Shown here in pieces: positions 36,878 through 39,380 of a stretch of 39,483 nucleotides of DNA. Position numbers and translations under genes: made by a program. The notes under the pieces are model-generated. The model saw only the letters and a list, made by a program, of their open reading frames with translations. It ran no database searches and was not told the DNA's origin. The stretch's first letter is position 1, and each line of letters begins with the position of its first letter. This DNA comes from Spirochaetaceae bacterium (lineage in GTDB: Bacteria > Spirochaetota > Spirochaetia > Treponematales > Rectinemataceae), in NCBI GenBank assembly GCA_025356015.1, contig JANXYO010000117.1:1-39483 (forward strand), written 5' to 3'.

Positions 36878-37963
36878 ATGCCAAAGGTGGGAAACTACCG
36901 CGCGAACTCGGTTATCTATTTCCAGGGCGATGCGAGCGACAAGGTCTACATCCTCCAATCGGGAAAGGTGAGCCTCAACTACTCAGACATCGAGACGGGC
37001 AAGGACGTCCACGAGGTCATCCAGACCGGCGAGTTCTTCGGCGTCAAGAGCGCGATGGGCAAGTACCCCCGCGAGGAGAACGCACTCGTCCTCAACGATG
37101 CCCAGGTCCTGACCTTCACGGTCCCTGAGTTCGAGCTCTTCTCCCAGGCGAACATCCGCATCATCATGAAGATGCTCAAGGTGTTCTCGACCCAGCTCAG
37201 GCGGGTCCACAAGCAGGTCGAGAACCTCCTCGAGAAGCCCGAGGCCCAGAGCCCCGAGGCGGGGCTCTTCAGGGCAGGCGAGTACTACCTCAAGAACCGC
37301 CAGTACACCCAGGCCAAGTACATATTCAGCCGCTACCTCACCTATTACCCGGCGGGGAAGCTTGCCGACCTGGCGAGCCACCATCTCGAGATGTCCGAGT
37401 CGGCGGCCACGAAATTCGGGGACGGCAAGGGCCCGGCCCCCCTCCTCGCCGATTCCGCAGGCAGGCCCGAGCCCCAACGGGCTGCCCCTGGCCAGGCCCG
37501 CGGCCCCGCGCCCCCCCCGCGTGAGGAAGAGGAGAGATCCGAGAGCCGTAGCGGAGGCGAGCCCCTCTCCGGCGCGGAGAAGGCCTACTACGAGGCGGTG
37601 AGCCTCTTCAGCTCCGAGAAGTACAAGGAGGCCCTCTCAGGCTTCAAGCGCATCGTCGAGGCCAACGCCGACCGCGAGTACGTGGGGAAATCCCTTTTCG
37701 ACATGGGACGCTGTCTCTTCATGCTCCAGCAGTACGACCTGACGATCAAGCATTTCACCGGCCTGGTGCAGTCCAACCCAAAGCATCCCGACCTGATCGA
37801 CACCCTCTTCTTCCTGGGCCAGTCCTACGAGAAGAAAAGCGACATCGAGCGGGCCCGGGGCTTCTACAAGAAGATCCTGACCATGGAGGCCGACGAGGAC
37901 GCCTCGACGCGGATCAAGGCGACCAAGGCCCTCCGCAAGCTGGAGGAGGCTAACCGTGGCTGA
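36878..37963 (+). CDS. Cyclic-nucleotide-binding domain plus TPR protein
   Basis: A 361-residue protein. The ATG follows GGTGGGAGTGAGAGCGG. The N-terminal cNMP-binding beta-barrel (about 1-115) has VIYFQGDASDKVYILQSGKV and FGVKSAMGKYPREENA, but the canonical phosphate-binding Arg-Ser/Thr-Ala is replaced. Two groups of TPR helices (about 130-170 and 235-355, with SLFDMGRCLFMLQQYD) flank a Pro/Glu-rich linker. There is no DNA-binding domain. It overlaps the next cNMP-binding gene by 8 bases. Such pairs occur in spirochaetes. It may be a scaffold or signalling protein. Confidence 0.85.
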   Translation: MPKVGNYRANSVIYFQGDASDKVYILQSGKVSLNYSDIETGKDVHEVIQTGEFFGVKSAMGKYPREENALVLNDAQVLTFTVPEFELFSQANIRIIMKMLKVFSTQLRRVHKQVENLLEKPEAQSPEAGLFRAGEYYLKNRQYTQAKYIFSRYLTYYPAGKLADLASHHLEMSESAATKFGDGKGPAPLLADSAGRPEPQRAAPGQARGPAPPPREEEERSESRSGGEPLSGAEKAYYEAVSLFSSEKYKEALSGFKRIVEANADREYVGKSLFDMGRCLFMLQQYDLTIKHFTGLVQSNPKHPDLIDTLFFLGQSYEKKSDIERARGFYKKILTMEADEDASTRIKATKALRKLEEANRG

Positions 37964-38603
37964 TCTCGCCGCCTTCACCCGCTTTGCGCGCACCTACCAG
38001 CCCGGCGAGATCATCTTCGCCGAATACGAGCCGGGCGACAGCTTCTACCTCATCCAGGCCGGCAAGGTGAAGATCTCCAAGATCGTCGGGGACCTCGAGA
38101 AGACCATCGACATCCTCCAGCCGCCCGAGATCTTCGGAGAGATGGCCATCCTCGAGGGCACCCCCCGCTCGGCCACGGCCCAGGCTATCGACACCGTCAA
38201 GGTCCTCGAGTTCAACAGGGCCAATTTCGAAGTCCTCATGATGGGCAACCCCCAGATCGCCTTGCGCCTCCTCAAGCTCTTCGCCAAACGCATCTGGGAC
38301 CAGAAGCGCCGTTTCATGATCCTCAAGCTCGACGACCCCCAGGCCAAGGTCGCCGACGTCTTTCTCATGTTCGACGAGACCAACGCGGTTGTCTCCGGGG
38401 GAAGCGAGCAGGACGGTGAGAAGCGCGAGTTCAAGGTCTCAGTCGAGGACGTCGCCCACTGGGCCGGCATGAGCAACGCCGAGGTCCAGACCATCCTCGG
38501 CCACTTCGCCAACCAGAGGCGGCTAGAGCTCTTCCCCGACAAGATCGTGGTGAAGAACATCAATGACTTCATTAGGTTCGTCGGCTCACGAAGGAAGAAA
38601 TAG
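37956..38603 (+). CDS. Crp/Fnr-family regulator
   Basis: A 215-residue protein with a GTG start after TGGAGGAGG. The cNMP-binding domain is complete, with FGEMAILEGTPRSATAQA, a phosphate-binding-cassette-like sequence that keeps PRSATA. A long C-helix (about 110-135) leads into a C-terminal winged helix (VEDVAHWAGMSNAEVQTILG, then RRLELFPDKIVVKN), so it can bind DNA. It is translationally coupled to the cNMP-TPR gene, suggesting the two read related signals. Confidence 0.85.
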   Translation: MADLAAFTRFARTYQPGEIIFAEYEPGDSFYLIQAGKVKISKIVGDLEKTIDILQPPEIFGEMAILEGTPRSATAQAIDTVKVLEFNRANFEVLMMGNPQIALRLLKLFAKRIWDQKRRFMILKLDDPQAKVADVFLMFDETNAVVSGGSEQDGEKREFKVSVEDVAHWAGMSNAEVQTILGHFANQRRLELFPDKIVVKNINDFIRFVGSRRKK

Positions 38604-38609
38604 CCGCCC

Positions 38610-38638
38610 TTGATTTTCGCCGCGATACCCGGTATAGT
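38610..38638 (+). promoter_or_regulatory. tRNA-Thr promoter
   Basis: TTGATT (38610-38615), a 17-base spacer and TATAGT (38633-38638), 13 bases before the tRNA. Confidence 0.75.
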
Positions 38639-38651
38639 CGGCCGCGTTCCC

Positions 38652-38724
38652 GCCGAGATAGCTCACTTGGCAGAGCGGCGCACTCGTAATGCGCAGGTAC
38701 CGGGTTCGATTCCCGGTCTCGGCT
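38652..38724 (+). tRNA. tRNA-Thr (anticodon CGT)
   Basis: A full cloverleaf can be drawn: acceptor GCCGAGA/TCTCGGC, D stem GCTC/GAGC, anticodon stem GCGCA/TGCGC with loop CTCGTAA (anticodon CGT, reading ACG), and T stem CCGGG/CCCGG with loop TTCGATT. CCA is not encoded. The 18 bases of its 3' end are repeated several times downstream, in both orientations. Confidence 0.95.
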
Positions 38725-38730
38725 CTTTAG

Positions 38731-38762
38731 GCAAAAGAACCCGCTATGGCGGGTTCTTTTGC
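38731..38762 (+). terminator. tRNA-Thr terminator
   Basis: A perfect 14-bp stem, GCAAAAGAACCCGC / GCGGGTTCTTTTGC, with a TATG loop and a T run, 7 bases past the tRNA. Confidence 0.93.
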
Positions 38763-38768
38763 TTTGGG

Positions 38769-38929
38769 AGCCGAGACCGGGAATCGAAGGGAAAGCGATC
38801 CGATGAGCGCGCGATTCAATGAGCGCGCTCATCGGTCGAGCCGCCATGGATGGCGGCGAGAGCGCTTTCCCCGGCCCGGAAGGCCGAGACACGATGTCGA
38901 GGCCTGGAGGGCGATTCCCGGTCTCGGCT
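38769..38929. repeat. tRNA-derived structured element A
   Basis: A 161-base unit bounded by AGCCGAGACCGGGAATCG (38769-38786) and its exact reverse complement (38912-38929), which is the 3' end of tRNA-Thr. Inside are a 12-bp stem at 38801-38812/38823-38834 with a 10-base loop GATTCAATGA, CCGCCAT/ATGGCGG, AAAGCG/CGCTTT and AGGCC..GACA/TGTC..GGCCT helices. The whole could fold into a closed multi-branched structure. A terminator-like hairpin follows directly. Confidence 0.8.
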
Positions 38930-38931
38930 TA

Positions 38932-38963
38932 AAAAGCGCGATCCCATGAGGGGTCGCGCTTTT
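38932..38963 (+). terminator. Terminator-like hairpin after element A
   Basis: A 14-bp stem from AAAAGCGCGATCCC to GGGGTCGCGCTTTT (one G-T pair) with an ATGA loop. It has the same size and design as the tRNA-Thr terminator and sits at the same place relative to the repeated tRNA 3' end. Confidence 0.8.
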
Positions 38964-38970
38964 AGTTTGA

Positions 38971-39152
38971 GAGACCGGGAATCGAAGGGTCGCCGCGATT
39001 CGATGAGCGGCGACCACCTGCCCCGCAGGTCATGCGATTCGATGAGCATGACCTGCGGCCGAGAGCCCATGGAGGGGCGCGAGGGCAGCTTCCCCGGCCC
39101 GGAGAGAGGCGACAGGACGTCGCCGACCGGAGGGCGATTCCCGGTCTCGGCT
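38971..39152. repeat. tRNA-derived structured element B
   Basis: A second unit with the same plan as A. The left end GAGACCGGGAATCG (38971-38984) is inverted against the right end, whose full 18-base tRNA 3' copy is at 39135-39152. Internal helices are GTCGCCGC/GCGGCGAC (38989-38996, 39007-39014) and CCGCAGGTCATGC/GCATGACCTGCGG (39023-39035, 39046-39058), both with the loop GATTCGATGA, and GGCGAC/GTCGCC. The stem sequences differ from A while pairing is kept. Confidence 0.8.
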
Positions 39153-39380
39153 GTAAACAGAACAGCGTATCGCCTTTGATTACAATGAAATACCGGAGTC
39201 ACAGAATCCATGTGACTTCGGTATTTTCATTTCTGTCCAACACTCGACCGCTAACTCGACCACTTCAGCAGTCATTCCTTTCCTCGCCTCAAAACGCCGA
39301 ACTACTGCTCAAACGAGCATAGTTTTCAGTGTAGGCATCATAAAGCGATGCCTCCCCCGCAGTCGGGGAAAGGAGCAAAC
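39153..39380. other. More A+T-rich segment with hairpins, probable island edge
   Basis: Base composition drops sharply right after the last tRNA-end copy. Hairpins seen are AAATACCGGAGTCAC/GTGACTTCGGTATTT at 39188-39226 (terminator-like), AGGCATC/GATGCCT at 39333-39353 and CCCCG/CGGGG at 39355-39368. There is no gene in the first 200 bases. Confidence 0.5.

Follow-up and report, generated by a model that had tools for sequence, protein, structure and literature searches.

tRNA-linked repeats in Spirochaetota that carry the 3' end of their own tRNA and putative CsrA-binding GGA loops

Behind a tRNA-Thr(CGT) gene of a Spirochaetaceae bacterium lie two tandem units of a repeat family whose members each carry the 3' end of their own tRNA, as a direct and an inverted copy that enclose a body of hairpins. 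These units are tRNA-linked repeats (TLRs) in kind; the layout is what they have in common with other TLRs, and the term is not meant to denote a homologous family. It is about an even chance, in our judgment, that within this TLR family of Spirochaetota the units act as CsrA-decoy modules that arise from read-through of tRNA transcripts and spread by DNA copying. The wider proposition of a phylum-level system, in which DNA-copied, CsrA-titrating modules borne by tRNA and tmRNA genes adopt the 3' end of their host tRNA and couple CsrA to tRNA synthesis, is put forward as a real but more tentative possibility. TLRs have been known for decades in enterobacteria and no function has been agreed for them except the in vitro binding of CsrA and Hfq by the three rRNA-linked TLRs rrA, rrB and rrF (PMC8144298). 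An unrelated set in Spirochaetota that has the TLR layout and nearly always CsrA-type loops makes the question of TLR function testable.

The window, that is the whole stretch of DNA analysed, is one entire contig of 39,483 nucleotides from a genome of 4.17 Mb with 43 tRNAs, and the features described here from the promoter candidate to the last hairpin lie on the forward strand. The tRNA-Thr(CGT) gene (38652-38724, with its end at 38724/5; identified by ARAGORN and matched to RF00005 at 65.4 bits) is preceded by a candidate sigma-70-like promoter from a consensus scan (38610-38638, TTGATT-17-TATAGT). The 3' end of the tRNA from C56 to position 73, here termed X (CGATTCCCGGTCTCGGCT), occurs as exact 18-nt copies at 38707-38724, 38912-38929 and 39135-39152, the latter two closing unit A (38769-38929) and unit B (38971-39152), which stand in tandem 3' of the tRNA. 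Each unit opens with an inverse complement of the tRNA end, termed X', so that the locus reads X-T-X'-body-X-T-X'-body-X. In unit A, X' spans 18 nt (38769-38786) and reaches 38788, or 20 nt, when compared with the tRNA itself, and in unit B it spans 14 nt (38971-38984), or 16 nt against the tRNA (38971-38986). These direct and inverted repeats of the 18-base tRNA end had been reported in the initial annotation, and every one of them proved exact to the base. Three exact 18-nt direct copies with inverted partners within about 500 bases exclude chance as their origin, and other tRNAs and other genomes show the same pattern.

Two terminator-like hairpins, both recognized as inverted repeats, separate these elements: T1 between the tRNA and unit A (38731-38762) and T2 between units A and B (38932-38963). 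T1, which was not called as a terminator in the terminator scan of the window, appears in the predicted fold together with the X and X' on either side of it, and the tRNA 3' end, T1 and X' together form a 40-nt inverted repeat at 90%. The body of unit A (38789-38911; 126.7 bits with the covariance model R1 introduced below) contains hairpin P2b (38840-38857), with the loop CATGGATG of the CsrA type CANGGANG, and hairpin P3 (38874-38912), whose loop CACGATG is a variant without GGA, while the body of unit B (38987-39134; R1 score 102.6 bits for 38968-39152) has the loops CATGGAGG at 39068-39075 and CAGGACG at 39113-39119. An intrinsic-terminator-like hairpin with a 17-pair stem and a T tail lies 3' of unit B (39187-39227) and is weak as a site, one having been found against 0.8 expected. 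Both units are predicted to fold into a closed three-way structure that consists of helix P1 (X' with X), a branch P2 with a variable hairpin and P2b, and P3 stacked on P1; two folded pieces of the window gave z = -6.1 and -4.0 against dinucleotide shuffles, in keeping with the earlier suggestion that the inverted and direct pairs enclose a closed branched fold. Directly 5' of tRNA-Thr, at 36878-38603, there are two adjoining Crp-like genes for cyclic-nucleotide-binding proteins, of which the first also has TPR repeats, and the order from the second Crp-like gene to tRNA-Thr is conserved in many Spirochaetota.

In the source genome an inverted copy of the tRNA's own 3' end is present downstream of 10 of the 43 tRNAs (a count that leaves out one cross-match within the tRNA-Ser cluster) and upstream of none. 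Units, some of them partial, stand behind tRNAs for Thr, Met, Ala, Val (two), Gly, Leu, Ser, Pro and Cys, in every case with the end of the tRNA concerned, and R1, which was built on 14 units, recovered 11 strong units in this genome. Of 59 related Spirochaetota genomes of the same order (the relatives that have names being uncultured Spirochaetota MAGs), 33 gave units with the same model, as did 26 of 247 genomes sampled across the phylum. The search proposed in the initial annotation, for copies with their own ends at other tRNA genes and for units in relatives, was thus successful. R1 identified 139 units in 100 retrieved loci, and 120 of them have a same-strand tRNA upstream, these hosts comprising 28 anticodon species, with tmRNA hosts besides. 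Five of the other 19 units were inspected, which placed three behind an apparent tmRNA 3' end and two behind 3'-half tRNA fragments, and several of the rest lie at contig ends; one of the two apparent tmRNA loci was confirmed by Rfam. Two closed genomes have 28 units between them, of which 26 stand directly behind a same-strand tRNA (chance ~1e-68), and the orientation of a unit is that of its host tRNA or tmRNA gene, with one to five copies per tRNA (five at the loci L305 and L307). The two 3'-half fragments belong to tRNA-Leu (L166) and tRNA-Thr (L193) and are like those left by genomic islands. A unit array of the source genome (G000:C72 18069-18533, L116) has no intact tRNA near it and an end, TTCGACTCCCCCCACCTCCA, that resembles a tmRNA 3' end, and at another locus (L168 748-888) the unit sits behind a tRNA-Ala within the 16S-23S spacer of an rRNA operon.

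The agreement between a unit and its host is specific to that host. On average, the longest match of a unit's 3' end is 15.4 nt with its own tRNA and 5.5 nt with other tRNAs, and the corresponding values for X' are 14.7 and 6.3 nt. The commonest length of X in relatives is 18-20 nt, and identity begins at C56 in 69 of 88 of their units. This rule of own-tRNA ends is also true for most of 20 further loci, some of them in other families of the phylum. Orthologous tRNA-Thr loci of other genomes may have or lack a unit, and X and X' track the sequence changes of the tRNA; within one genome the bodies are similar across different tRNAs, and the end helix tracks each tRNA.

It has been described that E. 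coli carries 22 TLRs at ten loci, each with 18-19 bp at its 3' end that exactly repeat the 3' terminus of the tRNA or rRNA gene before it (PMC8144298), the repeats having been reported by Egan and Landy 1978 and Rudd 1999 (as cited in PMC8144298). The loci include rtT/tyrT (rtT being Rfam RF00391), argVYZQ, the lys operons and rrA/rrB/rrF; rrB, whose conservation has been reported within Enterobacteriales, has a terminator on either side, and its GGA loops mediate CsrA binding (RrB at ~100 nM, GGA-dependent), while 19 of the 22 are predicted non-binders of CsrA (PMC8144298). In E. coli K-12 we found X copies with a helix-forming X' behind tyrT, tyrV, argV, argZ, lysT, lysW, lysY and lysZ; the inverted partner is weaker at argQ and rrfB, and at lysV/lysQ it was not formed in the fold. 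The spirochaete units resemble these TLRs in their position directly 3' of tRNA or rRNA genes, in their tandem copies (one to five per locus), in an X taken from the end of the upstream gene (identical at 18/18 positions in both window units) and, for the tyr, arg and lys TLRs, in a partly imperfect inverted X' that closes a helix. However, their bodies are unrelated in sequence, no homology of the body to E. coli TLRs having been found and RF00391 not being matched by the units even at E 10, they use 28 tRNA species plus tmRNA and mostly have two GGA hairpins, and CCA is not encoded. The initial annotation had proposed a new kind of tRNA-anchored element; a real family anchored at tRNAs with their own ends does exist, but the kind is already known from E. 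coli, whose TLRs share its defining feature, and what is new here is another body, another phylum and more host tRNAs. They are the first clear TLR counterparts that we could find beyond the E. coli group, in a search covering Spirochaetota. Among 5426 E. coli genomes, 734 gave no rtT-like copy and the others 1 to 10 each; 18 places with such copies are on plasmids. The csrA gene of E. coli K-12 is located directly upstream of the TLR-bearing serV-argVYZQ tRNA operon (L320).

Pairing is retained across divergent copies, as had been noticed for units A and B: 93.9% of helix cells are paired, and the covariation score is 0.642, versus 0.168 for shuffled and 0.05-0.09 for slid alignments. The further claim that this implies selection on an RNA structure is doubtful, since covariation by itself need not imply a functional RNA fold and there is no excess of G-U pairs of the kind seen in tRNAs. 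In the units, 68 G-U and 47 A-C cells were counted among 4125, whereas the acceptor and T stems of tRNAs from the same genomes gave 162 G-U and 3 A-C among 2044. A second unit set gave 26 and 17, and a model-free comparison of P1 arms 59 and 56, the covariance model's own bias being expected to favor G-U. Among similar units, double Watson-Crick changes are far commoner than single changes to G-U. G-U well above A-C in covarying helices is the mark of a structured RNA under selection, and the units do not display it; paired helices without G-U excess count against selection for RNA folding. As G-U and A-C are about equally frequent in units, unlike in the tRNA stems of the same genomes, the arms appear to be kept matched at the DNA level; either copying of the inverted arms or selection acting on them as DNA is the simplest reading. 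For 126 of 136 bodies the tRNA-sense strand is predicted to have the lower RNA folding energy, a bias that we do not count as proof of an RNA role because G-A rich loops on that strand could explain it.

Two hairpin loops of the units are conserved as well. The canonical CsrA motif is GGA in a hairpin loop (PMC8144298). Such a GGA is found in the loop of P2b in 131 of 136 units and of P3 in 108, with both hairpins having it in 105; against shuffled loops the figures are 124 of 128 versus 32 for P2b and 107 of 132 versus 27 for P3. P2b loops read CANGGANG in 78 of 136 units and CAGGANG in 23, P3 loops read CAGGANG in 94, and CGA replaces GGA in the P3 loop of 18 of the 136, as it also does in unit A of the window. 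Several GGA motifs in hairpin loops, as expected of a CsrA sponge, are therefore present: the loops are kept as ANGGA or AGGA sites with a C-G closing pair, two such hairpins occur in nearly every unit, and we take the longer loop consensus to be the CsrA/RsmE site. As many as 96% of P2b loops retain GGA, even though bodies from different genomes are on average ~57% identical.

The units are nearly confined to genomes that encode CsrA. Of the 33 relatives with units, 32 have a detectable CsrA, compared with 7 of the 26 without units (Fisher 8e-9), and in a further set of 14 genomes with units CsrA was detected in 13. This association is confounded by phylogeny, because the genomes without CsrA come largely from a few genera within one family, and one loss of CsrA might account for all of it. 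Two genomes have units but no detectable CsrA (one of them, G258, is 99% complete and has five units); there, P2b has GGA in only 4 of 7 units (p = 0.004, with small numbers and units that are not independent), as would be predicted for decay without a ligand.

Taken as CsrA decoys, the units would be made as short RNAs by terminator read-through or by co-transcription in a tRNA operon, and their paired GGA loops would bind CsrA, so that tRNA transcription would feed a CsrA decoy; E. coli rrA/rrB/rrF offer a precedent for the decoy step. If this is true, CsrA activity would be coupled to tRNA synthesis in Spirochaetota. Spread would occur by copying of the body between loci at the DNA level. 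T-loop bases common to all tRNAs (TTCRA) border the body on both sides (GAA...C), and strand switching could therefore take place there, leaving each copy with the end of its own host tRNA; the arms might be kept matched by copying, through template switching between them, or by selection on DNA hairpins. This copying mechanism is one that we infer from the unit boundaries only. The nearest relative of a body is in the same genome at another tRNA in 24 cases (5.9 expected) and at the same tRNA in another genome in 21 (4.6 expected), and since both classes exceed expectation, spread seems to be combined with inheritance in place. Mosaic Ala and Glu units of genome G017 (L188 and L189) share an identical inner module (52/52) and differ in other parts. 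Arrays have the form (X S X' body)n, where S is a spacer with a terminator-like hairpin, and the last copy is often truncated. At tRNA-Gly loci of one genus, occupied and empty orthologues are both present, and an empty/occupied site pair was not found among them, the flanks being too divergent.

Several of these features would also be expected if the units were purely DNA-level repeats, selfish or neutral and rich in hairpins, with no RNA role, an explanation that we consider rather unlikely. tRNA 3' ends and terminator hairpins would then promote strand switching and tandem duplication, and the loops would be conserved through recent copying or through reading by a DNA-binding enzyme. Covariation that is Watson-Crick-only, patchy occurrence at orthologous tRNAs, tandem arrays with truncated last copies, mosaic bodies and the E. 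coli TLR copy number of 1-10 per genome all agree with such repeats, whereas a fixed orientation relative to the tRNA, GGA in nearly all P2b loops of otherwise divergent bodies and the near-absence of units from CsrA-less genomes do not. A cis-acting RNA device, in which X' would pair with the 3' strand of the tRNA or with the unit's own X and so control precursor folding, 3' processing or read-through, is improbable: the complementarity of X' to its host tRNA reaches 20 nt, and X' tracks the changes of that tRNA between species and pairs with it across the intervening hairpin in the predicted fold, but the majority of tRNAs lack a unit, as do copies of the same tRNA in related genomes, P1 has no G-U tolerance, and the loops and body would be left unexplained.

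Mobile-element explanations are less probable again. That the units are REP-like elements mobilized by a RAYT/Y1 transposase is very improbable, even though a Y1_Tnp (IS200-like/RAYT) gene lies ~0.4 kb from the tRNA-Gly unit of the source genome (L105 933-1574, G000:C80) and another ~2 kb from a unit in G041, since such a gene is absent from 12 of 33 unit-bearing genomes, one of them closed, G049 (2.3 Mb) has 28 Y1_Tnp matches and no unit (association Fisher p = 0.07), and the units, unlike REPs, stand almost only behind tRNA/tmRNA genes; no transposase linked to the units was found. REP/BIME elements with RAYT resemble the units as DNA palindromes with many copies per genome and differ in not being anchored at tRNAs and in having no ends of their own target, and the units need no transposase. 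More improbable still are remnants of tyrosine-recombinase integration at tRNA 3' ends, for which direct X repeats, a boundary in the T-loop and the two units behind tRNA 3'-half fragments could be cited. Such remnants have direct repeats only and one target tRNA per element, but in the units X' is inverted, the body is conserved and the end varies with the host across 28 different tRNAs, which a single attachment site cannot all match; the earlier objection to simple site-specific integration is thereby sustained. It is hardly credible that the units spread through RNA and reverse transcription with tRNA 3' ends as primers. tRNA primers of retroelements use ~18 nt, which is the span of X, but no RVT_1 protein was found in the source genome or in the two closed unit-rich genomes, RVT_1 occurs in 6 of 33 unit-bearing and 5 of 26 unit-free genomes (p = 1), so that a reverse transcriptase is not linked to the units, and the G-U signature of an RNA is missing.

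With regard to other known RNAs, the sponges CsrB/CsrC and RsmX/Y/Z likewise have hairpins with ANGGA or CAGGAUG loops, but the units have two main sites rather than many, no promoter of their own and a tie to tRNAs. An Rfam search of the units gave no real match, rtT, CsrB/C and RsmX included, the rows for mir-3160 and similar families being generic long-hairpin matches below cut-off, and no CsrB-type RNA described for these unit-bearing bacteria was found in the literature. The E. coli tRNA trailer 3'ETS-leuZ is another functional RNA that derives from the 3' part of a tRNA transcript (cited in PMC8144298), but it sponges sRNAs through base pairing and is no repeat that carries the end of its tRNA. 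A BLAST comparison against plasmids returned tRNA matches only. Two loci 3' of tRNA-Gly(TCC) (L280 and L281) have the X'...X layout with bodies that are unrelated to R1 and without GGA hairpins, and further TLR families seem to exist in the genus to which they belong.
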